In this document: positions 1,264 to 37,293 of the stretch, one piece after another
How positions within the stretch are numbered: position 1 is the stretch's first letter
Layout of the letters: every line of letters begins with the position of its first letter
NCBI GenBank assembly: GCA_005787345.1
Contig: SYBH01000061.1
Coordinates: forward strand, 1 to 40,882
Length of the DNA stretch: 40,882 nt
Source: Actinomycetota bacterium
Lineage (GTDB): Bacteria; Actinomycetota; Acidimicrobiia; Acidimicrobiales; Acidimicrobilacustridaceae
Direction of reading: 5' to 3'
Made by a program: the position numbers and the translations under genes
The notes under the pieces: model-generated
What the model saw: only the letters and a program-made list of their open reading frames with translations
Database searches by the model: none
Told to the model about the DNA's origin: nothing

Positions 1264-1269
1264 AGTCGA

Positions 1270-1275
1270 AGCCTA
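1270..1275 (-). promoter_or_regulatory. -10 box TAGGCT, probable leaderless start
   Basis: TAGGCT ends 6 bases before the ATG at 1263 and lies just outside the stop of the upstream YhhN gene, so the synthase-like gene can be transcribed separately from that operon. No convincing -35 at 16-18 bases; a TTGACC lies 22 bases upstream. Confidence 0.5.
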
Positions 1276-1299
1276 CGGGGCAGTATCGCAACTGGTCGG

Positions 1300-1950
1300 T
1301 CAAAGAACCGCGAGAACCAACCCGGCTTGGCCGAGGTGATAGGTGACCATCACGATTATTCGGCTGCGGGGGAAACCGTTCAGGAACCGAGTCCAACCCA
1401 ACACCGCATCACTTGCACCGAAGAGCAGAGCCCCAGTTATGGCGAAGAATTGTCCGGTTCCAATTGCCGCAGCGACCATCAGCGAAATGACCGACATGTA
1501 CGCAGCGACTGGACCTGCCATCGCCCTATCGACTCTCGCTGCCCCTTGAACGATCCGCCGGCCAAGCACGACCGCTACCACCGTCATCAGGACGACACCG
1601 GTGACAAATCCCGTGAGCGAAATACCAAGCGACAACAACGCGATCACATAGAAAACATGCGCGACTAGAAACGCTCCGAGACCGGCAATGAACCAGTCTT
1701 TCGGGAGCATCAGGGCAATATCGCCGATCATCGACAGCACAAGCCCGATCACCAACATCGCTCTTGCAAAATCAGATGAAGGATCGATCGACATTGCGAC
1801 TGCGATGAGGAAAACCATCACAAGCGGTTTGAGAAGGTACTCCGCTACCCGGTAATTGTTTGCAACCGCAAGCCAGTCGCTGACAGCCACCACGGCCGTC
1901 AGCGAAAGAAGAAGAAAAGCGAGTGCAGTCACCGGTGACTCACGGCGCAT
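1300..1950 (-). CDS. YhhN/TMEM86-family membrane protein (putative lysoplasmalogenase)
   Basis: A 216-residue, almost wholly hydrophobic protein with about seven or eight membrane helices, typical length for the YhhN/TMEM86 family, whose characterised members hydrolyse the vinyl-ether bond of lysoplasmalogen. Family-like acidic and polar residues inside helices are seen at GDIALMLP and in the C-terminal FGASDAVLGW segment. The ATG at 1950 overlaps the end of the Nudix gene by 11 bases, so the two are probably translationally coupled. The reading frame stays open upstream to 2130, but that part is polar and lies inside the Nudix gene. Substrate in this organism is unknown. Confidence 0.8.
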   Translation of the reverse strand: MRRESPVTALAFLLLSLTAVVAVSDWLAVANNYRVAEYLLKPLVMVFLIAVAMSIDPSSDFARAMLVIGLVLSMIGDIALMLPKDWFIAGLGAFLVAHVFYVIALLSLGISLTGFVTGVVLMTVVAVVLGRRIVQGAARVDRAMAGPVAAYMSVISLMVAAAIGTGQFFAITGALLFGASDAVLGWTRFLNGFPRSRIIVMVTYHLGQAGLVLAVL

Positions 1951-2446
1951 CAAGCCGTGGCAGAACGAGGGCCATGCTGTCTGGGCACACCGAACGGCCA
2001 ACGAGCCATTCGCGGACGCTTTCCATCGGAACCCATAGCGCTTCGGAAATTTCGTTATCCGCAAATTCGAATGGACCCTCGGTGCGTGCTTGGTAAATCC
2101 GCGCAACTTCGCGGACGTCATCATCGGCAAACGATCCTTCGCCGAGATACGCGAGTTCGGCAGAAATGCCTAGTTCTTCTGCTAATTCCCGAGTAGCCGC
2201 CAACTCCCAAGCTTCACCGGCAGCAACAACGCCACTGACCGAAATATCCCAAGCGTCGGGCCAGAGGTCTTTCCACGATGCCCGCTGGTGAACAAGTAAC
2301 TCATCAGCATCGTTGCGAACAACCACGAAAACAGACCTGTGAAGGAGATTGTTCGAGCGCATCTCGGCACGAGTCACTGTTCCAACAACAGTGCCCACCT
2401 CATCAAGCTCATCGACAAGTTCCTCGCTTGCAGCGCCGTCACTCAT
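1940..2446 (-). CDS. Nudix hydrolase (IPP isomerase/YfcD-like)
   Basis: 168 residues. The complete Nudix box G-X5-E-X7-RELAEELGI is at residues 72-94 with all metal-binding glutamates present. The N-terminal part (VGTVTRAEMRSNNLLHRSVF) resembles the isopentenyl-diphosphate isomerase / YfcD branch rather than MutT. Such proteins hydrolyse nucleoside diphosphate-linked compounds or isomerise IPP; the substrate here is not deducible. The start codon overlaps the stop of the ferredoxin-reductase gene by one base (TGATG at 2448-2444), so it is co-translated with it. Confidence 0.85.
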   Translation of the reverse strand: MSDGAASEELVDELDEVGTVVGTVTRAEMRSNNLLHRSVFVVVRNDADELLVHQRASWKDLWPDAWDISVSGVVAAGEAWELAATRELAEELGISAELAYLGEGSFADDDVREVARIYQARTEGPFEFADNEISEALWVPMESVREWLVGRSVCPDSMALVLPRLDAP

Positions 2447-3678
2447 CAGAGAGTTGCCGCTCGTTCACAAGCTTCTGAGAATGATGCGCCTTCTTCAAAG
2501 AGTGCTCGAAGCTGGACGACGTGTCGGGGGCGATTCATGCCGAGCACGCCGGTGAGACGATCACCATCGCCGTAGAGCGCGACAAAACGGAACTCGTCGG
2601 TACTTCCATGGACGACAACACACGTATCTGACGGCATCGGACGACCAGCAAGCTGAATTTTGCGGTCGTATTGATCACTCCAGAACCACGGGATCGGATC
2701 AAACGCAACTGGAGTTTCGCCACTGGCCTCAGCCAGCAGCCGTCGGGCTGCGGCTTCACCACCGGCAATAGCGGTTTCCCAGTGTTCGACGCGAAGCATG
2801 CGCCCGAACCGAGCGCTCGGGTATCGAGCGATATCGCCTGCAGCGACAACGCCGGGAGCAGCGAGGAGTGTGTTGTCACAAACAACGCCATCGTCGAGCG
2901 TGAGCCCCGAACCTTCAAGCCAGTCGATGTTCAGAGTGACACCGATACCGACGACGACGATTTCGGTTGCGACAGTTGTTCCATCAGTCAGTGCAACTCC
3001 GATGACCTTCTCAACACCATCAACAGTTTCGGTTTCAAGTTGTAGAACGCCAACGCCGAGTCGAAGGTCGACACCGTTTTCGATATGCACCTGTGCACAA
3101 ACTTTCCCCATCTCGGTGCCAAGAATCCGCTCGAGCGGTAACGGCATGGCCTCGACAAGAGTGACCTCAATGCCTCGCTTACGACAGCTCGAAGCGACTT
3201 CAGCGCCAATAAACCCAGCGCCAATCACAACGACTCGTGAAGGACCGGCATCAAGTTCCGCTCGCAACGCAAGACTGTCGGCCAACGTTCGAACAACATG
3301 AACCCCTGCGATACCGGCGGAATCTGGTAATCGGCGCGCAGATGCACCACTCGCGATGATCAGTGAATCGAAAGCTGTGTTCGCGACTGCCCCGTCTACG
3401 CCTTCAAGCGTGATCTGACGTGCACCGAGGTCGACGGCCTTAGCCCGCACCCCCAGACGGAACTCGAGATCAAGATCTTCCTTGCCCGCCGGCAGGAGAA
3501 TCTTTTCGGGCTCCCACTCGCCAGTAAGTATCTGTTTCGACAACGGTGGTCGGTCGTAGGGTCGCTCGGAATCCGCGTCAACAACGATGATCGAACCAGT
3601 GTGCCCCTGAAGCCGAAGGGTTCGAGCCGCGTTGATGCCAGCAAGAGACGCGCCGACGATGACTGTGGTGGAGTCCAT
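2446..3678 (-). CDS. FAD-dependent ferredoxin/rubredoxin reductase
   Basis: 410 residues, the usual size for NAD(P)H:ferredoxin reductases that feed cytochromes P450 and ring-hydroxylating oxygenases. The N-terminal FAD loop is VGASLAGINAA (classical GxGxxG with Ser/Leu variation), the NADH-binding loop is GAGFIGAEVA near residue 150, and the FAD-contacting VVAAGDIAR and C-terminal WFWSDQYDRKIQLAG segments are typical of the rhodocoxin/putidaredoxin reductase group. A ferredoxin gene lies 43 bases upstream on the same strand and should be its electron acceptor. No cytochrome P450 is visible, so the terminal oxygenase is encoded elsewhere. TAGTCT sits 5 bases before the ATG and may be an internal promoter. 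Confidence 0.92.
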   Translation of the reverse strand: MDSTTVIVGASLAGINAARTLRLQGHTGSIIVVDADSERPYDRPPLSKQILTGEWEPEKILLPAGKEDLDLEFRLGVRAKAVDLGARQITLEGVDGAVANTAFDSLIIASGASARRLPDSAGIAGVHVVRTLADSLALRAELDAGPSRVVVIGAGFIGAEVASSCRKRGIEVTLVEAMPLPLERILGTEMGKVCAQVHIENGVDLRLGVGVLQLETETVDGVEKVIGVALTDGTTVATEIVVVGIGVTLNIDWLEGSGLTLDDGVVCDNTLLAAPGVVAAGDIARYPSARFGRMLRVEHWETAIAGGEAAARRLLAEASGETPVAFDPIPWFWSDQYDRKIQLAGRPMPSDTCVVVHGSTDEFRFVALYGDGDRLTGVLGMNRPRHVVQLRALFEEGASFSEACERAATL

Positions 3679-3683
3679 GGATC

Positions 3684-3689
3684 AGACTA
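3684..3689 (-). promoter_or_regulatory. -10 box TAGTCT before ferredoxin reductase
   Basis: TAGTCT ends 5 bases before the ATG at 3678, within the 43-base gap behind the ferredoxin gene. A small GGCGA/TCGCC hairpin (3700-3712) lies next to it. The spacing is the shortest of the set, so this is one of the weaker cases. Confidence 0.35.
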
Positions 3690-3721
3690 TGAACTGAGCG
3701 GCGAAAATCGCCATTCGGGGT

Positions 3722-3916
3722 TCAGTCTTCGGCGATGGAGATGGCCTGCTTAGGACACCGCTGCACCGACTCTTCCATCTTGGCGCGCATGGATTCCGGT
3801 GGGTTCTCGTCGAGGACGTAGAGGAAGTCGTCGTCACGAACCTCGAAGATCTCTGGGGCGATGCCCATACAGACGGCGTTGCTTTCACACAGATCGAAAT
3901 CGACCACGATTCGCAT
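3722..3916 (-). CDS. 3Fe-4S-type ferredoxin with CxxNxxC motif
   Basis: 64 residues, the usual size of the small actinobacterial ferredoxins that serve P450s. Cluster cysteines are C10, C16 and C54 (followed by Pro). The fourth-ligand position within C10-E-S-N-A-V-C16 is Asn13 where a 4Fe-4S protein would have Cys, so a 3Fe-4S or atypical cluster is expected. The ATG at 3916 follows a GAAGGGGA ribosome-binding site at good spacing, and upstream in-frame codons lack one. It is the first gene of the ferredoxin / reductase / Nudix / YhhN run. Confidence 0.88.
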   Translation of the reverse strand: MRIVVDFDLCESNAVCMGIAPEIFEVRDDDFLYVLDENPPESMRAKMEESVQRCPKQAISIAED

Positions 3917-4041
3917 GACGGTCCCCTTCTCAGAGCGATGACAATGAATTGATCGGTGGCAAGCGCCTCCGCACTCCCATCTTGCCCCATCTGCCACCGT
4001 CAGGGTGACGAGAGCCCTGACGACGTGACAGATTGGTAGGT

Positions 4042-5271
4042 ATGACTGAAATTGCTCCCCTTAAAGGAGTCCGCATTATCGAGGCTTCGATGCTCGGACC
4101 CGCCGCTGTCACTACCAATCTCGCCGAACTCGGCGCCGACGTCATCAAGGTCGAAGCCCCCGGGGGCGACTATGGCCGTCAGATGACTTGGCCCATCGTC
4201 GAAGACACGTCTTTGCTCTTCCTTCACTGCAATAGAGGCAAGCGTTCAATCGTGCTCGACCTCCGGACCGAAGAAGGCGTCCAAGCATTCAAGGAACTCG
4301 CCGCCGATGCCGACGTTGTCGTCGAGGCCATGCGCCCTGGCGCGCTCGCTCGTCGCGGCCTTGGCTACGAGGACCTGAAAGCCATCAACCCCAAAATCGT
4401 GTTCATGACGATTAGTGGCTACGGAATGACCGGGCCCTACCGCGATCTGCCGAGTCATGGAATTGCCTACGACACATGGGCAGGCATTATTGAACCGGCC
4501 TACGACGAAGAGGGCTACTGCTACATCCCGCCACATATCTCTATTGGCATCAACGCCGGTCCGATGTTCGGCGCCCTGGGCATCCTTGCGGGAATCATCA
4601 AAGCCCGCGCCACCGGCGAAGGTTGCTACATGGAAATCGCGCAGTCAGACGCCGCCGCTGCGTTCGACTGGTACCGCAGCGAGTCATTCAAGGCCTACGA
4701 ACGACCGCAATCAGAAGTTACCGGGAACAAAGCCGACAACTACGAACGACGCGCTCCGGGCACCGCTGGCATGAAAGAAGGTGTCCGCTATCAGATGTAT
4801 GAAACCTCTGACGGGCACATCCTCTTCATGGCATCGGAACAGGAGTTCTGGAAGAACTTCTGCAAGGGCATTGGACGCGACGACCTCTTCGAGAAGTTCC
4901 CGGGCTCGAAGTATGCCGACCACGCTCGCAACAACCGCGAACTTCTCGCCGAACTCACAACAATTTTCAAGACGAAGAGTTCGAAAGAGTGGATGGACTT
5001 TGGCGGCGAATGGAATACCCCACTTGCTCCGGTGAACACTCCGTCCAACATGCAAGACGATCCGCAGTTCCAGGACCGTATGCCTTGGATTCCCAAAGAA
5101 ATCCTTGGCGCTGACATGTTGCCGAACCCGGTAAAGATCATCGGAGGCGAACTTCCGATTCCTCGAAAGGCTCCCGAGTGCGGTCAGCACAGCGATGAAA
5201 TCCTTAGCGAGGTCCTCGGCTACGACGCGGCACGGATCGCCGAACTGCATGAAAAGGGCGTCCTCGGCTGA
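4042..5271 (+). CDS. CaiB/BaiF family III CoA-transferase
   Basis: 409 residues, full length for family III CoA-transferases, which move CoA from one acyl-CoA to a free carboxylic acid through a covalent aspartyl intermediate. The N-terminal LKGVRIIEAS...GPAAVTTNLAELGADVIKVE region is the canonical CoA-binding entry. The catalytic aspartate is probably Asp203 in MEIAQSDA, somewhat later than in formyl-CoA transferase because of an insertion containing PAYDEEGYCYIPP. Substrates are unknown; close relatives act on bile acids, carnitine or branched acids. Start: ATG at 4042; a TTG nine bases upstream is also in frame but has no better signal. CAGATT ends 7 bases before the ATG, a weaker form of the -10 seen elsewhere here. 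Confidence 0.92.
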   Translation: MTEIAPLKGVRIIEASMLGPAAVTTNLAELGADVIKVEAPGGDYGRQMTWPIVEDTSLLFLHCNRGKRSIVLDLRTEEGVQAFKELAADADVVVEAMRPGALARRGLGYEDLKAINPKIVFMTISGYGMTGPYRDLPSHGIAYDTWAGIIEPAYDEEGYCYIPPHISIGINAGPMFGALGILAGIIKARATGEGCYMEIAQSDAAAAFDWYRSESFKAYERPQSEVTGNKADNYERRAPGTAGMKEGVRYQMYETSDGHILFMASEQEFWKNFCKGIGRDDLFEKFPGSKYADHARNNRELLAELTTIFKTKSSKEWMDFGGEWNTPLAPVNTPSNMQDDPQFQDRMPWIPKEILGADMLPNPVKIIGGELPIPRKAPECGQHSDEILSEVLGYDAARIAELHEKGVLG

Positions 5272-5306
5272 GTCCGCCTGACGAACTTCTCCCGCCACCG
5301 ACGGAC

Positions 5307-6365
5307 GTGGCAACAGGGTTAACGCCCGCGCGACATGTCTCGCGTCTGCGAATCCTTGGGCGCGTTGTTTTTCTCGCCGTCATGGCGTTTGCGTTCTACG
5401 GACTCGCACCAAGGCTGCTCGATATGTGGGACCAAGTCCCACAACTTCGAACAGTCAGCATTTACTGGTTCGTTGCCATTCTCCTTTGTGAGGTTGGTTC
5501 GTACGCGTGCGCCTGGGATCTCACTCGCATCGCACTTCCGCGCGTGTCGTGGTTTGTCGCAGCAACAGCGCAACTCACTTCGAATGCAGTTGCCAAAGTT
5601 GTTCCGGGAGGCGCAGCTATAGGGGCAGCCACTGGATTCCGAATGTTGTCAGTCTCTGGAATCGACAAAGGTTCCGCTGGGGCCGCGCTCACCGCGACGT
5701 CAATCATTTCCAATGGCGTCCTGCTCTGCCTCCCGATGGTTGCTCTTTTTCTTTCAATCCTGGGAGCTCCCATCCCGGGCGGAATGATCCATGTCGCATG
5801 GGGCGGTGCAGTTCTCGCGGTCGTTCTCTTTGGCTTTACGTTTTCACTCGTTCGTTTTGATCGACCAATTCACTGGTTTGCGAGGACCATTACAACGGTT
5901 GCCGGATGGATCAATAAGCGTCGTGGCCGATCCGGAGGACCGACGGTGGAAGGCATCGTTCACCAGCGCGACCAGATGGTGAGCAGCCTCGGCGCCAGAT
6001 GGCGCACTGCGCTCCTCGCCGCGGTTGGCAACTGGCTGCTTGATTACTTCGCGTTGGTCTGCGCTCTCAAAGCATGTGGCGTGGACCCTCGTCTGAGTTT
6101 GGTATTGCTTGCCTACGCGGTCGCGGCCGTGCTCGGCATGATCCCGATCACTCCAGGTGGCGTGGGATTTGTCGAAGCCGGACTCACTGCGATGCTTGTG
6201 CTCGCTGGCGTTCCTAGCGAGAAGGCACTCCTGGCCGTCCTTGCCTACCGCATCGCCTCCTACTGGTTGCCGCTGCCGGCTGGCCTTGGAGCCCATTTCG
6301 TTTTTCGCCACAGATTTGGCAAGAAATCGGCCCTGTCAGAGACCGATGCCACTTCTTCTTCCTGA
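5307..6365 (+). CDS. Flippase-like (UPF0104/YbhN, LPG synthase TM-domain) membrane protein
   Basis: 352 residues with about eight membrane helices and the family signatures NAVAKVVPGGAAIGA near residue 92 and PITPGGVGFVEAGL near residue 278. These P-G-G turns mark the flippase-like domain shared by YbhN and the membrane part of lysyl-phosphatidylglycerol synthase. There is no catalytic synthase domain, so a lipid-translocation or glycolipid role is more likely than lipid aminoacylation. The start at a GTG (5307) is the most upstream sensible one and gives a short basic N-terminus before helix 1, but it has no clear ribosome-binding site. It follows the CoA-transferase by 35 bases. Confidence 0.82.
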   Translation: MATGLTPARHVSRLRILGRVVFLAVMAFAFYGLAPRLLDMWDQVPQLRTVSIYWFVAILLCEVGSYACAWDLTRIALPRVSWFVAATAQLTSNAVAKVVPGGAAIGAATGFRMLSVSGIDKGSAGAALTATSIISNGVLLCLPMVALFLSILGAPIPGGMIHVAWGGAVLAVVLFGFTFSLVRFDRPIHWFARTITTVAGWINKRRGRSGGPTVEGIVHQRDQMVSSLGARWRTALLAAVGNWLLDYFALVCALKACGVDPRLSLVLLAYAVAAVLGMIPITPGGVGFVEAGLTAMLVLAGVPSEKALLAVLAYRIASYWLPLPAGLGAHFVFRHRFGKKSALSETDATSSS

Positions 6366-6445
6366 CCCGATTCGACCGGCCCGGGAAAAGTTGCTCACAC
6401 ATTGGCGTTTCGTGCCGACAAGACAGGAAAGACCTCACGATGCAT

Positions 6446-6460
6446 TGACATCACCTGTCA
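6446..6460. promoter_or_regulatory. Inverted repeat TGACA-N5-TGTCA, possible operator
   Basis: A perfect five-base dyad 28 bases before the small orphan gene at 6488, overlapping a TTGACA hexamer that could be a -35. No clear -10 follows at 17 bases. It could bind a dimeric repressor but might be chance. Confidence 0.25.
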
Positions 6461-6487
6461 TGCCCGAAGAGCACAGAGGAGCCAGAC

Positions 6488-6733: not shown

Positions 6734-6741
6734 GAACGATC

Positions 6742-6765
6742 AGGAGGTGTCGTTCCATGTCCTAG
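6742..6765 (+). other. Two-codon minimal ORF (Met-Ser-stop) with a strong Shine-Dalgarno
   Basis: AGGAGGT at 6742-6748 is the best ribosome-binding sequence in this part of the window, yet the ATG eight bases later (6757) is followed by TCC and a TAG stop (6763). It sits in the leader of the amidohydrolase-fold gene, 40 bases before that start. It could be a regulatory start-stop element or the remnant of a decayed gene start. Confidence 0.3.
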
Positions 6766-6804
6766 ATTCGCTCCGTTCAACTTCTTCAAGGAGCGACGGA
6801 CCCC

Positions 6805-7668: not shown

Positions 7669-7676
7669 CGCAAATC

Positions 7677-7693: not shown

Positions 7694-7700
7694 GAGGTAG

Positions 7701-7706
7701 TACCAT
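7701..7706 (+). promoter_or_regulatory. -10 box TACCAT, probable leaderless start
   Basis: TACCAT ends 8 bases before the ATG at 7715, directly after the hairpin closing the preceding gene. Confidence 0.5.
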
Positions 7707-9509: not shown

Positions 9510-9515
9510 ACTCTA
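9510..9515 (-). promoter_or_regulatory. -10 box TAGAGT for acyl-CoA dehydrogenase
   Basis: TAGAGT ends 8 bases before the GTG at 9501. It faces the TAGTCT box of the divergent lipoprotein gene; the hexamers are 47 bases apart, so polymerases on the two strands would compete. Confidence 0.5.
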
Positions 9516-9562: not shown

Positions 9563-9568
9563 TAGTCT
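9563..9568 (+). promoter_or_regulatory. -10 box TAGTCT for I42-like lipoprotein
   Basis: TAGTCT ends 7 bases before the ATG at 9576. No ribosome-binding site lies between it and the start codon. Confidence 0.5.
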
Positions 9569-10693: not shown

Positions 10694-10699
10694 TACCCT
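10694..10699 (+). promoter_or_regulatory. -10 box TACCCT for DUF2332 gene
   Basis: TACCCT ends 7 bases before GTG 10707 and decides among several in-frame GTG codons, since the upstream candidates (10566, 10656) have no comparable signal. Confidence 0.5.
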
Positions 10700-12344: not shown

Positions 12345-12746
12345 ATGTCACCAAACAAACGAGTCTTCGTGCGCGGTTGCATGAAACGCTGCCCTGTCTG
12401 TGGGCAGGGTCATCTCTTTCGCCGCTGGTTCACGATGCTCGAACGCTGCCCCAAGTGCGATCTGAAGTTTGAACGAATTGAAGGGCACTGGACTGGCGAT
12501 CTCGGCATCAACACAATCGTGAGTTTCGGCGCACTTCTCATCGTGCTTCTGGTCGGGTTTCTTGCCTTCTGGCCGACTCCACCCATTGTTGTGATCATCA
12601 TCGCTGCGATTGCTGCAGCGGGACTACTTCCCCTCGCGTTCTTTCCTTTCTCGAAGACGATCTGGCTCGCGCTCGACATCTTGATGCGACCAATTGAACC
12701 CGGCGAAGTGCGCCCCGGCTTCGGGCCACAAGCAGACACCATCTAG
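12345..12746 (+). CDS. DUF983 membrane protein (copy B)
   Basis: 133 residues. It shares the whole plan of copy A at 10200-10646: two CPxC pairs (CPVCGQGH, CPKCDLKF), EGHWTGD, two hydrophobic helices, FFPFSKTIWLALDILMRPIEPGE and a closing PGF. Zinc binding by the four cysteines is expected. Start at ATG 12345 leaves 2 bases after the Nudix stop; an in-frame GTG at 12333 is less likely because it lies inside the Nudix gene. Its TAG stop also forms the first three bases of the next gene's -10 box. Confidence 0.85.
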   Translation: MSPNKRVFVRGCMKRCPVCGQGHLFRRWFTMLERCPKCDLKFERIEGHWTGDLGINTIVSFGALLIVLLVGFLAFWPTPPIVVIIIAAIAAAGLLPLAFFPFSKTIWLALDILMRPIEPGEVRPGFGPQADTI

Positions 12747-12749
12747 CCT
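12744..12749 (+). promoter_or_regulatory. -10 box TAGCCT overlapping an upstream stop codon
   Basis: TAGCCT ends 7 bases before ATG 12757. Its first three bases are the TAG stop of DUF983 copy B. Confidence 0.5.
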
Positions 12750-12756: not shown

Positions 12757-14031
12757 ATGCCGACTGAACCTTCAACCACCGACTCCGCGTCAGCCGGAGA
12801 CACGAAGGTCGATGTCCTCGTGGTCGGAGCAGGTCCTTCCGGTTGCGCTGCTGCACTCACACTCTCTCGTGCAGGTCACACCGTTGTCGTCATCGACAAA
12901 GCAACATTTCCGCGCGACAAGATCTGTGGCGACGGTCTCACCACCTCGGCACTGCGCGAACTCGATGCTCTCGGTCTCGACCCAAAGACTGTGCCCTCGT
13001 GGGTCAGCGTTGACGATGTCGTCGTCCGATCGCCCAGCGGTCGCGAAGTTGTCTTTCCGCTGCCGAGAGACAGTGGAACGTATGCAGCGGCGAGCCGCCG
13101 ACAAGACCTCGATCTAGCGCTGGTCCAACTTGTTCGATCTGAAGGCATTGAGATTCGCGAGAACGTTGCTCTTTCCTCGATGACACAAAACAATTCCTCA
13201 GCAACGGTTCTTACCGATGCTGGCGACACCATTAGTTCCTCCTATGTCATTGCCGCCGACGGAATGTGGTCGCCAACCCGCAAGGCACTCGGCATCGCCC
13301 AACCCGGCTACCGCGGCGAATGGCACGCGTTTCGTCAGTACTTCAAAAACGTTTCTCCGCGCGCTTCGAGCGAACTCATCGTTTGGTTCGAACCTGATCT
13401 TCTCCCCGGCTATGCGTGGTCGGTCCCCCTTGCCGACGGAACTGCGAATATCGGCTTTGGAATTCTGCGGGACGACAGTTCGTACAAAGTCAGCGATATG
13501 GGGCCACTTTGGCGCGAACTTCTTGCCCGACCCCATGTGCGCGAGTTCCTCGGTCCCGATGCCGAACCGGAAAGTCCGCACCGCGCATGGCCCATCCCCG
13601 CACGAGTCGATCGCATCGCCCTTACGTGCGAGCGCACCCTCTTTGTTGGCGACGCGGCGGCGGCAACCGATCCCATGACAGGTGAAGGAATCGGTCAAGC
13701 GCTCCTCACCGGCCGCTGGGCCGCCGAAGCAATCATCTCCAATCCCACAAACGTGACAGCGTGCGCCTCGGCCTACGAACATTCGGTTGAGACTGAACTC
13801 TCCGTTGACCATCGCTTCGCTGAACGTCTCATGGCCATCCTCCGGCGGCCACTTGGCGCCCGAGGTGCCGTTCGCATCGCCGGGATGAGCGGGTGGACAC
13901 GTCGCAATTTTGGCCGATGGCTGTTTGAGGATTACCCACGCGGTCTTTTGCTCACACCTCGACGCTGGCATAGGCGCATGCTCACCGGCCCGGGGGCGTA
14001 CCGTGGCAGTCATGCGAACTCAGCTGACTGA
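12757..14031 (+). CDS. Geranylgeranyl reductase-family FAD oxidoreductase
   Basis: 424 residues. A 15-residue polar leader precedes the FAD loop VLVVGAGPSGCAAALTLSRAG; the family hallmark KATFPRDKICGDGLT follows, and the second FAD motif LFVGDAAAATDPMTGEGIGQAL is near residue 300. Members reduce isoprenoid double bonds, for example in menaquinone (MenJ) or geranylgeranyl lipids; related proteins are halogenases and monooxygenases. Menaquinone saturation is a reasonable guess for an actinobacterium but nothing nearby confirms it. The end overlaps the next gene by 20 bases. Confidence 0.87.
   Translation: MPTEPSTTDSASAGDTKVDVLVVGAGPSGCAAALTLSRAGHTVVVIDKATFPRDKICGDGLTTSALRELDALGLDPKTVPSWVSVDDVVVRSPSGREVVFPLPRDSGTYAAASRRQDLDLALVQLVRSEGIEIRENVALSSMTQNNSSATVLTDAGDTISSSYVIAADGMWSPTRKALGIAQPGYRGEWHAFRQYFKNVSPRASSELIVWFEPDLLPGYAWSVPLADGTANIGFGILRDDSSYKVSDMGPLWRELLARPHVREFLGPDAEPESPHRAWPIPARVDRIALTCERTLFVGDAAAATDPMTGEGIGQALLTGRWAAEAIISNPTNVTACASAYEHSVETELSVDHRFAERLMAILRRPLGARGAVRIAGMSGWTRRNFGRWLFEDYPRGLLLTPRRWHRRMLTGPGAYRGSHANSAD
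13999..14004 (+). promoter_or_regulatory. -10 box TACCGT inside the upstream gene
   Basis: TACCGT ends 7 bases before ATG 14012 and lies within the last codons of the flavoprotein gene, so it could act as an internal promoter. Being in coding sequence, it may be chance. Confidence 0.35.
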
Positions 14032-16382: not shown

Positions 16383-16388
16383 ACGCTA
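16383..16388 (-). promoter_or_regulatory. -10 box TAGCGT for small protein and F420-type oxidoreductase
   Basis: TAGCGT ends 7 bases before ATG 16375. It would drive both minus-strand genes from 16375 to 14978. Confidence 0.5.
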
Positions 16389-17943: not shown

Positions 17944-17949
17944 ACCGTA
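17944..17949 (-). promoter_or_regulatory. -10 box TACGGT for NTF2-like gene
   Basis: TACGGT ends 7 bases before ATG 17936. The whole gap to the divergent ATG at 17966 is 29 bases, so the hydrolase promoter (CAGGAT, 6 bases before its ATG) overlaps this one's upstream region. Confidence 0.45.
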
Positions 17950-18828: not shown

Positions 18829-18834
18829 TAGCCT
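18829..18834 (+). promoter_or_regulatory. -10 box TAGCCT for RecB-like nuclease
   Basis: TAGCCT ends 7 bases before ATG 18842, 32 bases after the hydrolase stop. Confidence 0.5.
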
Positions 18835-18841: not shown

Positions 18842-19699
18842 ATGGCATTGAAACTCCCCACGTCGCTTTCGCCGTCAAAGGTGTCGTCCTTCACCGATTG
18901 CGCATTGTCCTTTCGCTTCTCGGCAATCGACAAAATTCCGCAGCCTCCAACCGTTGCCACCGTCAAGGGAACACTCGTGCACTCTGCGCTTGAGCGACTG
19001 CTTGCGCTTGATCCCGCCGATCGAACAATCGATGCCGCGATCGCATGCCTTGCCGCTGCGTCAAACGAACTCGATACCGATCCCGAGTGGGCAGAACTCG
19101 CGCTCAACCCCGACGAACAAGTGACCTTCTTCCGCGATGCCGATGTACTCGTGCACAAATACTTCGACGTCGAAGATCCCACCACCATCGAACCCATCGG
19201 ACTTGAACTTCATGTCGAACATCAGCTCCCTGTAAAAAGCGGTTCGAGCGTCACATTGCGCGGCATCATCGACCGGCTCGAACGCGATGCAAATGGTCAA
19301 CTCGTCGTGAGTGACTACAAAACCGGCAAAGCGCCCGCCGAGGGCTACCAGCAGTCGCGCCTCACCGGCGTGCATATCTATGCCTACCTCTGCGAACAGA
19401 TCTACGGCGAGCGACCAAGCAAGGTGCAATTGATTTATCTCGGCGGCACACCAACCATCGTTGAAACAACCCCGACTGAACAATCAACCCGCCAAATCGA
19501 ACGCAAAGTCACCTCAATCTGGTCAGCAATTGAAACGGCATGCGAGCGCGAGGATTTTCGACCAAAGAAGTCGAAACTTTGCTCTTGGTGCTCCTATCAG
19601 CAGTGGTGTCCGGAATTCGGCGGAAACCCCGACGACGCCCGGAAAGCCTTTGAGGGAGTGGAACGTCCCGTTCGTCCCAGTGGTTTCACTCAGGCCTGA
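18842..19699 (+). CDS. RecB/Cas4-like PD-(D/E)XK nuclease with Fe-S cysteines
   Basis: 285 residues. The opening LSPSKVSSFTDCALSFRF is the standard start of RecB-like nuclease domains; GTLVHSALERLL supplies the motif I His, and LRGIIDRLE ... LVVSDYKTGK supplies the Asp and the D-x-K active site. Four cysteines (C20, C247, C250, C256; the last three spaced C-X2-C-X5-C) match the iron-sulphur staple of AddB and Cas4. No helicase, cas or addA gene is adjacent, so it acts alone or with a distant partner. DNA repair is the likely field. Confidence 0.88.
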   Translation: MALKLPTSLSPSKVSSFTDCALSFRFSAIDKIPQPPTVATVKGTLVHSALERLLALDPADRTIDAAIACLAAASNELDTDPEWAELALNPDEQVTFFRDADVLVHKYFDVEDPTTIEPIGLELHVEHQLPVKSGSSVTLRGIIDRLERDANGQLVVSDYKTGKAPAEGYQQSRLTGVHIYAYLCEQIYGERPSKVQLIYLGGTPTIVETTPTEQSTRQIERKVTSIWSAIETACEREDFRPKKSKLCSWCSYQQWCPEFGGNPDDARKAFEGVERPVRPSGFTQA

Positions 19700-19721: not shown

Positions 19722-19727
19722 TAGCAT
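19722..19727 (+). promoter_or_regulatory. -10 box TAGCAT for PAP2 gene
   Basis: TAGCAT ends 8 bases before GTG 19736 and supports that codon over the TTG at 19727. Confidence 0.45.
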
Positions 19728-21512: not shown

Positions 21513-21541
21513 GTCATCGGCCCGCACTAGCGTCATCGGCC
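21513..21541 (+). repeat. Direct repeat GTCATCGGCC, 19-base period
   Basis: Ten bases repeated exactly at 21513-21522 and 21532-21541, the second copy ending right at the ATG and covering the last base of the -10 hexamer. Confidence 0.5.
21528..21533 (+). promoter_or_regulatory. -10 box TAGCGT for LLM gene at 21542
   Basis: TAGCGT ends 8 bases before ATG 21542; there is no ribosome-binding site in between. Confidence 0.5.
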
Positions 21542-24613: not shown

Positions 24614-24619
24614 AGCGTA
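24614..24619 (-). promoter_or_regulatory. -10 box TACGCT for thioesterase/LLM pair
   Basis: TACGCT ends 7 bases before GTG 24606, and is the reason for preferring that start. Confidence 0.4.
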
Positions 24620-24918: not shown

Positions 24919-24924
24919 TAGGAT
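24919..24924 (+). promoter_or_regulatory. -10 box TAGGAT for thiolase
   Basis: TAGGAT ends 6 bases before ATG 24931, in the 55-base gap after the small gene. Confidence 0.5.
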
Positions 24925-30573: not shown

Positions 30574-30579
30574 ACGCTA
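30574..30579 (-). promoter_or_regulatory. -10 box TAGCGT for the mca set
   Basis: TAGCGT ends 6 bases before ATG 30567. It faces TAGTCT of the divergent lipoprotein gene, 44 bases away between hexamers. Confidence 0.5.
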
Positions 30580-30623: not shown

Positions 30624-30629
30624 TAGTCT
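30624..30629 (+). promoter_or_regulatory. -10 box TAGTCT for PEBP-like lipoprotein
   Basis: TAGTCT ends 7 bases before ATG 30637. Confidence 0.5.
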
Positions 30630-31305: not shown

Positions 31306-31307
31306 GT

Positions 31308-32120: not shown

Positions 32121-32126
32121 GCTCTG

Positions 32127-32132
32127 AGACTA
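32127..32132 (-). promoter_or_regulatory. -10 box TAGTCT for thioesterase
   Basis: TAGTCT ends 6 bases before GTG 32120. The rest of the gap to 32211 holds only a TAGAAC motif and no further gene. Confidence 0.5.
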
Positions 32133-32210
32133 GGCATCACCCACACGTAGCAACTACCGCAAGCGTGCGCTAGAACCTGTTCACACATTGCTCTGTCTCC
32201 GGGGGTTTCC

Positions 32211-33254
32211 ATGAAGGCATTCCAGTTGCTCGGCGGTTCGGCCGAGGTCGACGTCACTACTGCACTCAACGAGGTCGCTCAGCCCGATCCCGGCCCAGGC
32301 CAGGTACTCATTCGCATCGGCGGCGCCGGCGCATGCCACAGCGATATCAGCCTGATGGAATTCTCCGCTGGCGGCCCTCGCGAAACGCCCATGACCCTCG
32401 GCCACGAAAACGCCGGTTGGATCGAAGCATTCGGTCCCGCCACCGTGCCGACTCCCGGTCTCGAAATCGGTTCCCCCGTGGCTGTCTATGGCGCATGGGG
32501 TTGCGGTCAGTGTTCGAACTGCCGCAAGGGCATGGAGAACTACTGCCTGAACATTTCTGCCAGCGGTCCGGGCCTCAGCGTCGATGGCGGCATGGCCGAG
32601 TACCTCCTTGTACCTGCCGCCCGCTACCTCGTTCCGCTCGGCGATATGGCGCCAGCAGAAGCAGCTCCGCTCACCGATGCTGGCCTTACGCCCTATCACG
32701 CGATCAAGCAGGCTCTTCCGCTGCTTGTTCCTGGTTCATTCGTTGTGGTCATCGGTGCTGGTGGCCTTGGCCATCTTGCCGTGCAATTCCTCAAGGCACT
32801 GTCACCCGCAACCGTTATTTCGGTTGATCAGCGCGAGTCAGCCCTCAAGGTCGTTGCTGGTCTTGGCGCCGACCACACCGTAGTGATGGGCCCCGATGCT
32901 GCTGCTGAAATCCGTGGCATCACCGGTGGTCGTGGCGCTGAAGTCATTCTCGACATTTGCGGCTATGACGACACGCTTGCTCTTGCTGCTGCAGTTGCGG
33001 CACCGCTTGGCCGACTGACGGTCGTAGGCGTTGGCGGTGGCACGTTGCCGTTTAGTTTCTTCACCTTCCCCTACGAATGCAGCGTGCAAAGCACGTATTG
33101 GGGAAGCATCACTGAACTTGGCGAATTGCTTGAGCTTTCACGCAGTGGCGGTTTCCGCGTTCACGCCGAGACCTATGCACTCGATCAAGCCCGTGACGTT
33201 TACAACAAGATGGTTGACGGAACACTGCAGGGTCGAGCCGTCATCGTTCCCTGA
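32211..33254 (+). CDS. Zinc-dependent NAD(P) alcohol dehydrogenase (MDR)
   Basis: 347 residues. The catalytic zinc ligands are Cys42 (GACHSD) and His65-Glu66 (GHENAG); the structural zinc cysteines C98, C101, C104 and C112 are all present in GCGQCSNCRKGMENYC. The cofactor loop is VVVIGAGGLGHLAVQ, followed by an acidic residue after the second strand (VISVDQRE), which favours NAD over NADP. It oxidises alcohols or reduces aldehydes; the exact substrate is unknown. A GGGGG tract 5 bases before the ATG is a poor ribosome-binding site. Confidence 0.93.
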   Translation: MKAFQLLGGSAEVDVTTALNEVAQPDPGPGQVLIRIGGAGACHSDISLMEFSAGGPRETPMTLGHENAGWIEAFGPATVPTPGLEIGSPVAVYGAWGCGQCSNCRKGMENYCLNISASGPGLSVDGGMAEYLLVPAARYLVPLGDMAPAEAAPLTDAGLTPYHAIKQALPLLVPGSFVVVIGAGGLGHLAVQFLKALSPATVISVDQRESALKVVAGLGADHTVVMGPDAAAEIRGITGGRGAEVILDICGYDDTLALAAAVAAPLGRLTVVGVGGGTLPFSFFTFPYECSVQSTYWGSITELGELLELSRSGGFRVHAETYALDQARDVYNKMVDGTLQGRAVIVP

Positions 33255-33279
33255 TTGCTCGCATTTTGAAGTCCGGAAA

Positions 33280-33320
33280 AACGAAAGGGCCCGCAGCGCG
33301 TGCTGCGGGCCCTTGTCGTT
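33280..33320. terminator. Bidirectional terminator between ADH and DoxX genes
   Basis: AAGGGCCCGCAGC (33285-33297) pairs perfectly with GCTGCGGGCCCTT (33302-33314) around a GCGT loop, with flanking AACGA/TCGTT extending the stem past one bulged base. On the minus strand it is followed by a T-rich tract (TTTCGTTTTTCC), so it fits both the alcohol dehydrogenase and the DoxX gene. Confidence 0.88.
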
Positions 33321-33335
33321 CTCGGTTGGTGAGAA

Positions 33336-33917
33336 TTAGTTCGATGCGACCGACTTCGGACGCCAGAACGTTGCGAGCTGCAACAGGCCGCCACCGATAC
33401 CGGCGACCAGCACGATGATGAGCCCCTTGGGAACGCCTGCCCAGTGGATATCGGCAGCATGATCGATGGACCATTCACCAGCGCCGGTGCAGGCGAGACC
33501 GATACCAACAGCAGCTAGTACGACGACGTATTCAATGCCGCCGCCCGGGTTAAAGATGAACCAGCCGTTCTTCCTATGCGTGGTGATCAGTGCGACCACC
33601 ATGATGGCGACCATGCCCGCCGCAGCAAGTGGCGTGAGGAAACCAAGCGCAAGAAGTGCACCTGAGCCGATTTCGGTGAGCGCAGCGATCCAGGCGTTGG
33701 CCTTCGGCATTTTCATGCCCATGGATCCAAACCAACCGGCGGTGCCAGCAATTTTGCCGCCACCAAAGATCTTGTTCAGACCATGCGTAGCAAGCGTGAC
33801 ACCAACGACAACACGGATGATGAGCAGACCAAGACTGAGTCCATTCGCCATTTCGTCTGTGGCATACATATCGGTGGACATCATCGTTACAGGCATGTCC
33901 ATCATTTGGGCGAACAT
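33336..33917 (-). CDS. DoxX-family membrane protein with Met-rich N-terminus
   Basis: 193 residues, four membrane helices with the DoxX signatures LLIIRVVVGVTLATHGLNKIFGG and ITTHRKNGWFIFNPGGGIEY. DoxX proteins are quinone-linked redox or oxidative-stress membrane proteins. The first 23 residues contain eight methionines (MFAQMMDMPVTMMSTDMYAT and on), which the family does not usually have. The ATG at 33917 is fixed by AGGAGG 6 bases upstream; the frame is open to 34190 but the extra part lies antisense-side in the dnaE2 end. A TACTCT at 33952-33957 gives a leader of about 28 bases. It lies 76 bases downstream of dnaE2. Confidence 0.85.
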   Translation of the reverse strand: MFAQMMDMPVTMMSTDMYATDEMANGLSLGLLIIRVVVGVTLATHGLNKIFGGGKIAGTAGWFGSMGMKMPKANAWIAALTEIGSGALLALGFLTPLAAAGMVAIMVVALITTHRKNGWFIFNPGGGIEYVVVLAAVGIGLACTGAGEWSIDHAADIHWAGVPKGLIIVLVAGIGGGLLQLATFWRPKSVASN

Positions 33918-33993
33918 TCGGTTCCTCCTCGAGAGGGTTGCTAACGGGCAAAGAGTACGACCGACACACTCGTTGGCGGTGGACTCTCGACAA

Positions 33994-36900
33994 TTAACGA
34001 AAGTCGCGTGATCTGTAGCCCCCAACCACCGGAAGAACCTCGAGTTTGTCGGCCACCACGTTGATGACACCGTCGATACGTTCAAGACGACCTCGTACCA
34101 ATAGCGCTGGCGCGCCCCGAGCCACCCGCCGGTAGCGCTTCCATAACCCAGGAGAACACACCACGTTGATGAGACCGGTTTCGTCTTCAAGATTTACGAA
34201 AGTGATGCCGTGTGCGGTTGATGGCCGTTGGCGATGGGTAACGACTCCTCCGACCAACACGCGCGTATCGGTCGGGGCGGTACGTAGTTCCGCTGCAGTG
34301 AGCACACCGAGCGACGCGAGATGTTCTCGTTCAAACAATGTGGGGTGCCCGTCAGGAGAGACGCCAGTGGCCCAAAGATCAGCACCTGCGAGTTCACGAT
34401 CTGAAAGCCCTGGGAGCGACGGCGCATCGGCCCCGGTAACGATGCCAGGAAGTCGGTCAGCGCTGGTTTCGGCCACTGCGCCAGCCACCCACAGAGCACG
34501 ACGGCGGTCGAGGTTTGTGCCACTTCGATCAGTGCAGTTCGAAAACACCCCTGCGGTTGCCATTGCTTCAAGCGCAGTCCGATCGATATCAATGCGTTGC
34601 GCGAGATCAGTCATTGACGCATAGGGCCCGTTTGTTTCACGTTCAGTCACGATGCATTCAGCGAGTTCGTCACCGACTGAACGAACTGAAGACAACCCCA
34701 GCCGAACAGCAGGTTGAGGAACCTCGACACCGCCCACCGGAAACGCATCGATAGGGAAAGGGACATCGGCGGTTGTAGCCGCCCGACCCTCGACCCATTC
34801 AAGAGTGGCGCCCACGCCCGACGCTGCGAGATCGGGAGTGCGCACCGCCACGCCGTGGCGCCGAGCATCGGCCACCAGTGTGTGCGGTGAATAGAAGCCC
34901 ATGGGTTGCGCGTTCAACAGACCAGCACAAAACGCTGCGGGAAAGTACCGCTTGAGGTACGAACTCGAATAGACCAGATAGGCGAATGACACCGAGTGGC
35001 TTTCGGGAAAGCCGAAGTTCGCGAATGCTGCGAGTTTGTCGAAGATCTGTTCAGCGATATCGCCAGTGATGCCGCGTTCAGCCATGCCTTCAAACAATCG
35101 ACCACGCAAACGTTCCATACGTTCAGAACTTCGCTTTGACCCCCTGGCTTGGCGCAACTGATCGGCCTCACCCGGGCTGAAACCGGCGATATCGATTGCC
35201 ATTTGCATGAGTTGTTCTTGAAACAACGGAATGCCCAAGGTCTTGGCCAACGAAGGTTCAAGCAACGGATGCAGATAGGTGACGTTTTCGAGACCGTTGC
35301 GGCGGCGGATATACGGATGCACCGAGTTGCCTTGAATCGGACCAGGACGAATAAGTGCAACCTCAACCACAAGGTCGTAAAACTTGCGCGGCTTGAGCCG
35401 AGGAAGCGTAGCCATTTGCGCGCGACTCTCGACCTGAAAGACCCCGACAGAATCGGCAACACACAACATGTCGTAGACGGCATCGTCTTGAGGGACTTCG
35501 GCAATATCGATAGCAAACCCGTAGGCCTCGGCAACCGCATCGACGGTGTTATGCAATGCAGTGAGCATGCCGAGACCGAGAAGATCGAACTTCACCAAAC
35601 CCGCTGCGGCGCAATCGTCCTTATCCCATTGCAAAACACTTCGATTCTCGCGACGAGCCCACTCGACGGGACACACCTCGATGATGGGACGGTCACAGAG
35701 CACCATGCCGCCAGAATGAATACCGAGATGTCGCGGCGCGTGTTCAATCTGTGCAGCCAACTCAATGACAGCTTGCGGAATGGCGTCGGAATCGGGCTCA
35801 GGCGTAACCGTGTTGGCATTGTCTTCGAGTTGGGCGATGAGCGAACCCCAACGATCGACATTTTTGGCCCATGCATCGGCCTGACCGGGCGCATACCCGA
35901 GCGCGCTGGCCATATCGCGTACTGCCGAACGCGGCCGATAGGTAATGACATTGGCAACCTGTGCGGCGTAGTGACGACCATGACGTTGGTAGACGTACTG
36001 AATGACTTCTTCGCGTCGACCAGATTCGATGTCAATGTCGATATCGGGCGGACCATCGCGCTCAGGCGAAAGAAAACGTTCGAATAACAAACCCAACTCG
36101 ATGGCGTCGGCTTTGGTAACACCTAACGCGAAACACACCGCAGAGTTGGCAGCCGACCCACGACCTTGGCAGTAGATATCGTTGCGACGACAAAAATCGA
36201 CAAGGTCATACACAATCAGGAAGTAACCAGGGAAACCGAGCTGTTCGATGATGGCCAGTTCGTGATCGATCTGCGCCCAAGCCCCGGCAACGCGTTCACG
36301 ATGGCGAGGCCCATAGCGACGTTCGGCACTGCGTTCGGTCAGACGCCGTAGATACCCCATTTCATCGAGCCCATCGGGACACGGAAATGGTGGAAGGTTG
36401 GGCGCCACAAGTTTCAAATCGAACGCGCAGGCCTGACCCAGTTCCCCCGCTCGTTCCACTACACCGGGGTAACGAGCAAATCTTCGGGCTTGTTCAGAAC
36501 CTGAACGAAGATGCGCACCAGCACCTGCCGGTAGCCAACCATCGATTTCGTCGAGACTACGACGAGAACGCACTGCGGCTAACGCGGTTGCGAGTGGACG
36601 TTCTGCTGGCGTTGCGTAATGCGCGTTCGTAGTAGCAACAAGATCGACATCGCCGCGCAGTGCGATCTGCATTAACGCGTCGTTACGAACTGAATCAAGC
36701 GGATGGCCGTGATCCCATAACTCGACTGCGAGATTGTCGCGACCAAAGGCATTGACGAGTAACGCGAGTTGATCGGCCGCTGCCGCAGGACCGTGATGTT
36801 CGAGCGCGGAAGCAACAGCACCTTTACGGCAGCCCGTGAGCACCAACCAGTGATTGCGATCGGCCACCGGTGCCGCTGCGCCACCAAGCGCGCACAGTTC

Positions 36901-37281
36901 GGCAAGCGATGCGCGCGGTGCGCCCTTTTCGCCCCGCAACTGCGCTTCGCTCAGCGCCCGCGCCAACAATGCATACCCGCGAGGATTACGGGCAAGAACG
37001 ATGAGATGCGATTCACCAGCTGCTGAGCCTGGGTCGGGGTCGGCCACTGGCGGTGCCGTGCGCCCCAAGGTGAGTTCAGCACCGAAGATGGTGGGCAATC
37101 CGACCGCACGTGCCGCCTCGGCGAAACGAACAACGCCGTAGAACCCGTTGTGGTCGGTAAGGGCGAGCGCGCTGAGTTCTAGTCGTATTGCCTCGGCGGC
37201 CAGCGCTTCGGGCGTGCTGGCCCCGTCGAGGAAACTGAACTGAGAATGGCAATGCAGTTCTGCATAGGACTCCGACCCCAT
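33994..37281 (-). CDS. dnaE2: Error-prone DNA polymerase DnaE2
   Basis: 1095 residues, the length of DnaE2. An N-terminal PHP domain (ELHCHSQFSFLDGAS, ALTDHNGFYGVVRFAEAAR) is followed by the polymerase core with PDIDIDIESGRR near residue 411 (two catalytic Asp), a helix-hairpin-helix region, and a C-terminal OB fold (GGVVTHRQRPSTAHGITFVNLEDETGLINVV). DnaE2 is the mutagenic, damage-induced translesion polymerase of actinobacteria, working with ImuA' and ImuB, neither of which is visible. The start is ATG 37281: the frame is open to 37401, but the LexA box and TACGGT hexamer lie directly before 37281. It is the only gene here with a recognised operator. Confidence 0.96.
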   Translation of the reverse strand: MGSESYAELHCHSQFSFLDGASTPEALAAEAIRLELSALALTDHNGFYGVVRFAEAARAVGLPTIFGAELTLGRTAPPVADPDPGSAAGESHLIVLARNPRGYALLARALSEAQLRGEKGAPRASLAELCALGGAAAPVADRNHWLVLTGCRKGAVASALEHHGPAAAADQLALLVNAFGRDNLAVELWDHGHPLDSVRNDALMQIALRGDVDLVATTNAHYATPAERPLATALAAVRSRRSLDEIDGWLPAGAGAHLRSGSEQARRFARYPGVVERAGELGQACAFDLKLVAPNLPPFPCPDGLDEMGYLRRLTERSAERRYGPRHRERVAGAWAQIDHELAIIEQLGFPGYFLIVYDLVDFCRRNDIYCQGRGSAANSAVCFALGVTKADAIELGLLFERFLSPERDGPPDIDIDIESGRREEVIQYVYQRHGRHYAAQVANVITYRPRSAVRDMASALGYAPGQADAWAKNVDRWGSLIAQLEDNANTVTPEPDSDAIPQAVIELAAQIEHAPRHLGIHSGGMVLCDRPIIEVCPVEWARRENRSVLQWDKDDCAAAGLVKFDLLGLGMLTALHNTVDAVAEAYGFAIDIAEVPQDDAVYDMLCVADSVGVFQVESRAQMATLPRLKPRKFYDLVVEVALIRPGPIQGNSVHPYIRRRNGLENVTYLHPLLEPSLAKTLGIPLFQEQLMQMAIDIAGFSPGEADQLRQARGSKRSSERMERLRGRLFEGMAERGITGDIAEQIFDKLAAFANFGFPESHSVSFAYLVYSSSYLKRYFPAAFCAGLLNAQPMGFYSPHTLVADARRHGVAVRTPDLAASGVGATLEWVEGRAATTADVPFPIDAFPVGGVEVPQPAVRLGLSSVRSVGDELAECIVTERETNGPYASMTDLAQRIDIDRTALEAMATAGVFSNCTDRSGTNLDRRRALWVAGAVAETSADRLPGIVTGADAPSLPGLSDRELAGADLWATGVSPDGHPTLFEREHLASLGVLTAAELRTAPTDTRVLVGGVVTHRQRPSTAHGITFVNLEDETGLINVVCSPGLWKRYRRVARGAPALLVRGRLERIDGVINVVADKLEVLPVVGGYRSRDFR

Positions 37282-37287
37282 GGGCCC

Positions 37288-37293
37288 ACCGTA
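37288..37293 (-). promoter_or_regulatory. -10 box TACGGT for dnaE2, overlapping the LexA box
   Basis: TACGGT ends 6 bases before ATG 37281, implying a leaderless mRNA. A TTGCCG at 37312-37317 stands 18 bases upstream as a plausible -35, so the LexA site fills the spacer. Confidence 0.6.

Follow-up and report, generated by a model that had tools for sequence, protein, structure and literature searches.

The TANNNT hexamers that stand a few bases ahead of many start codons in this DNA from the little-studied Acidimicrobiia are very probably, as judged from sequence, the -10 promoters of leaderless mRNAs. Under this reading RNA polymerase would use the boxes as -10 elements, the start codon would itself be the transcription start, giving an mRNA without a leader, and the ribosome would initiate at the 5'-terminal AUG or GUG without a Shine-Dalgarno (SD) sequence. 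Between about a fifth and a quarter of genes would have this arrangement, mostly those able to head a transcription unit, the remaining genes being without a box and many of them carrying SD-like words. Leaderless promoters are strongly supported by the sharp onset of the boxes at a gap of six bases to the start codon, their near-absence in overlapping gene pairs, their conservation at a fixed gap and the lack of TTG among their start codons.

The window (the whole 40,882-nt stretch of DNA analysed) contains all 19 TA(G/C)NNT hexamers listed by an earlier sequence-only reading, each followed by a start codon at a gap of 5-8 bases. On the forward strand these are TACCAT (7701..7706, gap 8) ahead of ATG 7715 (DUF6790); TAGTCT (9563..9568, gap 7) ahead of ATG 9576, the start of a gene that scores weakly; TACCCT (10694..10699, gap 7) ahead of GTG 10707 (DUF2332; box at 7/7 homologous starts and in 11/12 aligned relatives); TAGCCT (12744..12749, gap 7) ahead of ATG 12757 (FAD-binding oxidoreductase; 6/6 homologous starts, two of these with a gap of 9 or a shifted start), in which the TAG at 12744-12746 doubles as the stop of the called upstream gene 12435-12746; TACCGT (13999..14004, gap 7) ahead of ATG 14012 (nitronate monooxygenase; 1/2); TAGCCT (18829..18834, gap 7) ahead of ATG 18842 (PD-(D/E)XK nuclease family; 14/15); TAGCAT (19722..19727, gap 8) ahead of GTG 19736 (PAP2 family; 3/3); TAGCGT (21528..21533, gap 8) ahead of ATG 21542 (luciferase-like monooxygenase); TAGGAT (24919..24924, gap 6) ahead of ATG 24931 (thiolase; 19/23); and TAGTCT (30624..30629, gap 7) ahead of ATG 30637 (PEBP family; 3/3, one shifted). 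On the reverse strand they are TAGGCT (1270..1275, gap 6) for ATG 1263 (glutamate-synthase-domain protein); TAGTCT (3684..3689) for ATG 3678 (pyridine nucleotide-disulphide reductase), at a gap of 5, which lies outside the genome-wide peak; TAGAGT (9510..9515, gap 8) for GTG 9501 (acyl-CoA dehydrogenase; 8/8); TAGCGT (16383..16388, gap 7) for ATG 16375, whose 107-aa product has no Pfam match; TACGGT (17944..17949, gap 7) for ATG 17936 (SnoaL-like; 3/3); TACGCT (24614..24619, gap 7) for GTG 24606 (acyl-CoA thioesterase-like; 7/7); TAGCGT (30574..30579, gap 6) for ATG 30567 (PIG-L deacetylase family; 29/30); TAGTCT (32127..32132, gap 6) for GTG 32120 (acyl-CoA thioesterase; 1/1); and TACGGT (37288..37293, gap 6) for ATG 37281 of the presumed dnaE2, whose product is of the DNA polymerase III alpha type.

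Starts were called by our own coding-score gene caller, which is blind to any box. Among the starts called in this way in the window, TANNNT was found at gaps 5-8 in 17/41 against 0.33 expected, the background being taken at gaps 14-49 of these starts, so that the excess over chance was upheld and the earlier estimate of about two chance matches was cautious; at gaps 6-9 the count was 16/41 assessable starts. The caller picked different starts for 2 of the 19 genes, namely 10656 instead of 10707 and GTG 14003 instead of 14012. The three starts flagged as chosen partly for their box (10707, 19736 and 24606) agree with all of their homologous starts, and the boxes help to fix these start codons. 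Support for start 14012 is weak, given one of two homologous starts and the caller's preference for 14003.

The genome-wide search for a peak that the sequence-only reading had proposed was run on a 498-kb sample of the same genome, and the peak is present at gaps 6-9, with TANNNT at 89/443 starts (20.1%) against 7.6 expected. Gaps 4, 5, 6, 7, 8 and 9 hold 1, 1, 47, 23, 14 and 5 of the 443 box-blind starts, respectively, so gap 6 is the mode and the onset is sharp. Four further families gave 52/335 starts against 3.7 expected, and an E. coli control showed no peak (2/92 against 7.1 expected). The caller hit 29/42 typed E. coli starts exactly, so the true share of boxed starts is probably higher than counted here. 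Allowing any start within 60 nt raised the fraction to 24% of all and 36% of divergent starts over a shifted-gap background of about 3%. Leaderless -10 promoters are therefore predicted as the earlier reading had proposed, whereas its description of them as the rule does not hold, since only 20-24% of genes are concerned. Boxed starts were commoner in the window than in the rest of the sampled genome (16/41 versus 73/402, Fisher p = 0.003), a post hoc comparison, as the feature had been picked in the window. Totals vary slightly by script (705 or 706 unboxed starts; 441 or 443 genes) owing to differing demands on upstream length.

The distribution of gaps also bears on the alternative that the boxes are promoters but that many transcripts carry a very short leader, from one nucleotide to a few. 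Gaps of 8-9 (19/89 boxes) would place the canonical transcription start 2-3 nt before the start codon, in keeping with such leaders, but the sharp onset and the mode at gap 6 (47/89) fit transcription that begins on the first nucleotide of that codon, and this alternative is considered unlikely.

Gene context separates promoters from a second alternative, in which the hexamer is no promoter but a translation signal, a ribosome-binding motif other than SD, on mRNAs that have leaders. The fixed distance between hexamer and start would suit such a motif, as would the scarcity of SD-like words at boxed starts (an SD-like 4-mer at gaps 3-10 in just 4/89, partly a mechanical result because the box fills much of the SD zone); SD-like 4-mers precede 29% of all starts, i.e. 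more than carry a box. A ribosome-binding motif should, however, also serve operon-internal genes, and the box is found in 45/136 divergent starts (33%) but in 0/69 starts overlapping a co-directional upstream gene in the genome sample, and in 3/151 overlapping co-directional starts versus 173/710 across four genomes of the genus (p = 8e-13). The hexamer has, in addition, the sequence of a -10 element and abuts an operator-like palindrome at dnaE2. The ribosome-motif explanation is thus regarded as very improbable, and leaderless promoters remain the preferred reading. Against this reading stands the absence of the box from two thirds of divergent starts and from 67/76 starts whose co-directional neighbour is over 80 nt away.

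Conservation points in the same direction. TANNNT was found 5-9 bases upstream in 101/108 homologous starts of 12 window genes (dnaE2 excluded), the comparison being without the genes starting at 1263, 3678, 7715, 9576, 16375 and 21542. The box persists ahead of orthologous starts although the flanking DNA diverges; that of the PIG-L gene is kept in 19/19 relatives, and over five aligned genes, wherever a start is 1-6 codons further upstream, a box precedes that start at gaps 6-9. The least probable explanation, that TA-rich coincidences, starts picked to fit and TAG triplets that are merely upstream stops account for the pattern, could draw on the part played by the box in choosing three starts and on six genome-sample boxes that use an upstream stop, but as a general account it is refuted by the box-blind counts and by the homologous starts, and divergent genes have no co-directional upstream stop at that place, although chance may hold for single boxes.

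The third base of the box had been described as always G or C. No TAWNNT occurs at box gaps among the box-blind window starts, but A or T is found in 16/89 genome-sample boxes and also in orthologous boxes, which contradicts that description. TASNNT was rejected as a motif stricter than TANNNT in the genome sample, where S (G or C) is found in 73/89 boxes versus 71/88 matches at other upstream gaps (p = 0.29 against a wider background of 77/102). When four genomes of the genus were pooled, S reached 154/178 versus 132/177 (p = 0.005) and G alone 97/178 versus 72/177 (p = 0.011), so that G is mildly favoured and T disfavoured as a preference and not a rule. The 178 boxed start codons comprise 132 ATG and 46 GTG; TTG occurs in 0/178 boxed versus 16/706 unboxed starts (p = 0.053), and GTG versus ATG usage does not differ between boxed and other genes (p = 0.78). 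A pyrimidine precedes the start in 125/178 boxed versus 383/706 unboxed genes (p = 1e-4), and in 50/80 versus 106/192 when only divergent genes are counted (p = 0.28). No column or word indicative of a -35 element was enriched over the 178 promoters, TTG at spacers of 16, 17, 18 and 19 being present in 1, 0, 2 and 3 cases, and the predicted promoter would therefore rest on the -10 alone.

The dnaE2 box is directly adjoined by the palindrome TCGAACNNNNGTTCGA (37294..37309, unstranded), which resembles an SOS box. Passages of a study of LexA/SOS boxes in Streptomyces venezuelae (PMC9380542) support this naming and describe the same palindrome type at DNA-repair genes; there the LexA site of dnaE2 was scored as intragenic, whereas here the palindrome often abuts a start-proximal -10 box. 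The dnaE2 box is kept in position in the 5 closest relatives having the same N-terminus and is missing at the homologous codon in the other 13 aligned relatives. The fixed homologous-start test gave a box in only 15/96, a low score because the length of the N-terminus varies, and a search allowing the start to move is the better test. In many relatives, too, palindrome and -10 box adjoin, the box standing 6-9 bases ahead of the start codon. This exploratory observation of an SOS-like operator adjoining a leaderless dnaE2 -10 is new, and the pair may represent a compact way of placing a leaderless gene under LexA.

A second compact design, also new and exploratory, is the use of a stop codon as the -10 of the next gene. 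In actinobacterial samples, the distance from the stop to the following start is 9-12 nt in 28/85 close pairs with TAG/TAA versus 22/222 with TGA (p = 4e-6). TANNNT is read in 19 of these 28, and two of the 19 look orthologous to two others. The result was not replicated in four fresh families (6/35 versus 2/21, one-sided p = 0.36, two TANNNT), and E. coli, which has no leaderless peak, shows TAG/TAA at 9-12 nt in 9/23 pairs with only one TANNNT. In the genome sample the upstream stop provides the TA(G/A) of 6 boxes, which may be coincidence.

CarD and RbpA, which assist initiation of the mycobacterial type, were searched for in the genome and 20 relatives. The CarD model PF02559, which also matches E. 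coli, has matches in 21/21 genomes, 19 of which have a short frame of CarD size (176-234 aa); the other two have a long frame only, probably Mfd. The RbpA model PF13397 matched 0/21 genomes, although it could miss a diverged form; in the phylum it matched 11/119 genomes, none of them in the same class. This lack of matches is a new, exploratory finding and contrasts with mycobacteria, where RbpA is essential (PMC5302886); if real, it would make -10-only leaderless initiation independent of RbpA.

The pattern is the known actinobacterial leaderless type (Zheng 2011; Cortes 2013). A limited literature search found no leaderless study on Acidimicrobiia, and the words TAGNNT and Acidimicrobium are absent from the main text of Zheng 2011 (PMC3160421). 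That study placed TANNNT some 12 bp ahead of the start codons of leaderless genes in Actinobacteria, at a mean of 19.2% of genes over 86 genomes (range 2.3-29.8); the position matches that found here, as does the average (20.1% of our sampled starts), and the mild third-base G preference sets our boxes apart. In Mycobacterium tuberculosis (Cortes 2013, PMC3898074), a TANNNT -10 without a conserved -35 was reported, with purine starts and C commonest at -1, and at 505 genes transcription begins no more than 5 bp from the start codon; divergent promoters set close together are a further likeness, although leaderless starts were mapped experimentally there and are predicted here. Corynebacterium glutamicum has about 33% leaderless mRNAs, mapped by RNA-seq, with only AUG (79%) or GUG (21%) starts (PMC3890552), the same restriction to these two codons as in our boxes, which were recognized from DNA alone. 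Together, the -10-only leaderless mode of mycobacteria, corynebacteria and streptomycetes is indicated for Acidimicrobiia too, and the addition to the known pattern consists of this little-studied group and, as exploratory findings, a few unusually compact promoter designs.

Within the draft genome of 2.29 Mb (174 contigs, 82% complete), of which the window forms contig 41 with a G+C content of 58%, TANNNT hexamers placed just before start codons are very likely the -10 elements of predicted leaderless promoters. MAGs labelled Microthrixaceae, Actinomycetota and Acidimicrobiales gave the best named matches to the window's dnaE2-like protein, and the genome is accordingly assigned to an Acidimicrobiia bacterium. 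All 19 TA(G/C)NNT hexamers proposed in the sequence-only reading were found, each 5-8 bases from an ATG or GTG. The choice of starts was removed by a gene caller written for the analysis, which scores hexamer coding bias and is blind to boxes; with it, TANNNT occurred at gaps of 5-8 bases between box and start codon in 17 of 41 assessable window starts, against 0.33 expected from gaps 14-49. In a 498-kb sample of the same genome (the window plus 40 stretches, 443 box-blind starts), counts at gaps 4 to 11 were 1, 1, 47, 23, 14, 5, 2 and 2, so that the count by distance bore out the proposal with a peak at gaps 6-9 (89 versus 7.6 expected; starts with a box at these gaps are hereafter called boxed). 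If transcription begins with the start codon (+1 at its first base), the sharp onset at gap 6 would have the -10 element span positions -12 to -7. Boxes preceded 20.1% of box-blind starts, or 24% of genes when any start within 60 nt was accepted (3% at shifted gaps), and Shine-Dalgarno (SD)-like words stood upstream of 29% of starts; leaderless genes would thus be a large minority rather than the rule that had been claimed. The window is richer in boxes than the other sampled parts of the genome (16/41 versus 73/402, p = 0.003), which may be the source of that impression.

The accompanying claim that the third base is always G or C did not hold, since this applied to 73 of 89 boxes in the genome sample, compared with 71 of 88 TANNNT words at other distances upstream of starts, and orthologous boxes include TAACCT, TATCCT, TATCGT and TAAAGT. 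The G/C share is therefore mainly a matter of base composition. When four genomes of the genus (this one, G002, G004 and G012) were pooled, a mild third-base preference was seen for G (97/178 versus 72/177, p = 0.011) and for the bases G and C taken together (p = 0.005).

If the box instead served ribosomes, it would be expected at genes inside operons too. In the genome sample, boxes were found at 45 of 136 divergent starts, at 14/71, 20/76 and 9/76 starts with a co-directional neighbor at 0-30 nt, 31-80 nt and farther away, respectively, at 1/15 starts at contig edges and at none of 69 genes overlapping the upstream gene. Across the four genomes of the genus, the overlapping class was almost devoid of boxes (3/151 versus 173/710 for the others, p = 8e-13), which argues against a translation signal and indicates that the box tracks transcription units. 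SD-like words occurred at only 4 of 89 boxed starts in the genome sample, in part because the box occupies the SD zone. TTG start codons were found at 0/178 boxed and 16/706 unboxed starts (p = 0.053), and a pyrimidine preceded the start in 125/178 versus 383/706 (p = 1e-4), but among divergent starts alone the difference was not significant (50/80 versus 106/192, p = 0.28). In some divergent pairs (L017, L008, L053 and L063), just 24-45 bp separate two genes that each have a -10 box, a spacing that puts each promoter's upstream region inside the opposite gene.

Five window genes were compared with relatives from 20 genomes by reading the DNA upstream of homologous starts. TANNNT stood at gaps 6-9 in 19/19 relatives for PIG-L; for PD-(D/E)XK, a box lay at gaps 6-7 in 17 of 18 assessable loci and at gap 10 in one, a further locus being cut at the edge. 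DUF2332 had a box in 11 of 12 aligned relatives (two other loci were unaligned and five fetched loci left out) and thiolase in 16/19, where two of the three box-less relatives (50-54% identity) may be paralogues. For dnaE2, the box was present at the homologous codon in 5/19, these being the five closest relatives with this N-terminus; 13 lacked it and one was unaligned. Where a relative's start was shifted one to six codons upstream, a box preceded that start, too, with the usual spacing. A wider test on fetched loci, which took any nearby in-frame start (comparable chance level 2-4% in samples of the genus) and in which some loci overlap or repeat a genome, showed that, in 12 window genes, 101 of 108 homologous starts had a box, compared with 15/96 for dnaE2; for six genes no homologous start was available. 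By eye, a CTGTCAC-like word, conserved in many relatives (L269-L288), precedes the -10 box of the PD-(D/E)XK gene at 18842 by about 10 bases; its spacing to the box is too short for a -35 element, and it is possibly a regulator site.

Upstream of the dnaE2-like gene at 37281 (minus strand), an SOS-box-like palindrome ends where the -10 box begins (the two together span 37288-37309, minus strand), with the ATG 6 bases past the box; this is presumably an SOS box. Sites of the same palindrome type appear in the available portion of PMC9380542. Among 100 dnaE2 loci, 9 were not assessable, 36 came from other actinobacteria and 55 were of Acidimicrobiia type, a label drawn from titles and kinship that takes in unclassified Actinomycetota MAGs, one entry titled Acidobacteria, the window itself and at least one pair (L107, L216) of identical sequence. 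The palindrome (at most one mismatch) was found in 46/55 Acidimicrobiia-type loci, with an immediately adjoining box and start in 32, a box elsewhere in 4 and no box in 10, and in 15/36 other loci, with an attached box in 5/15; one more of the latter had a box with a weaker palindrome. An extended operator could account in part for the TA of the box, the left arm being TAT in many cases. However, the box can move one base relative to the palindrome while remaining 6-7 bases from the start. The divergent gene at 37280-38443 (387 aa, no Pfam match) has a box-blind ATG overlapping that of dnaE2 in CCATGG (37279-37282), so that the upstream signals of each gene would lie within the coding region of its neighbor; the actual start of the divergent gene may instead be ATG 37364, further downstream. 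No literature was found on dnaE2 with SOS box and leaderless; in the partial texts retrieved, one paper combining leaderless, LexA and dnaE2 has the first term in its references only, and the word leaderless was absent for SOS box, LexA, transcription start site and dnaE2.

At 12744-12746, TAG is both the stop codon of the upstream gene and the first three bases of the -10 box that precedes the following gene. In the actinobacterial samples, TAG/TAA stops were over-represented 9-12 nt ahead of starts; a small fresh set did not reproduce the excess, and E. coli often has TAG/TAA at 9-12 nt too. A stop codon that doubles as a -10 element is a suggestive reading.

All other actinobacterial samples showed the box peak at gaps 6-9. 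Boxed starts amounted to 22%, 23% and 13% in the same genus (G002, G004 and G012), 5%, 18% and 15% in the same order (G014, G017 and G018), 21% in named Acidimicrobiia loci, which all flank one gene and so have neighbors in common, 10% in Micromonosporaceae, 17% in Mycobacteriales, 9% (6/67) in Pseudonocardiales and 18% (9/50) in Micrococcales. Four additional genomes gave 52/335 versus 3.7 expected. The E. coli control showed no box excess (2/92 versus 7.1 expected; 1/42 at annotated starts). CarD-family matches were found in 21/21 genomes (this one and 20 relatives), and RbpA (PF13397) had no match in the same 21; across the phylum, 11 of 119 genomes gave an RbpA match, all of them outside this class, and the lack of matches is thus not peculiar to the genus.

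In the partial texts retrieved, no literature on leaderless genes was found under the class name Acidimicrobiia, and for five genus names the word leaderless was absent among the matches listed. No -35 column or word was enriched among 178 boxed promoters, as in M. tuberculosis, which is likewise reported, in the available part of PMC3898074, to lack a conserved -35. In the portions available, Zheng et al. (2011; PMC3160421) reported that TANNNT lies about 12 bp ahead of start codons and that leaderless genes average 19.2% in Actinobacteria, Cortes et al. (2013; PMC3898074) mapped such transcripts, and a GeneMarkS-2 survey (PMC9581028) predicted that 21.6% of bacterial species use leaderless transcription. 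The leaderless pattern is already known from Actinobacteria and is here also predicted for an Acidimicrobiia genome.
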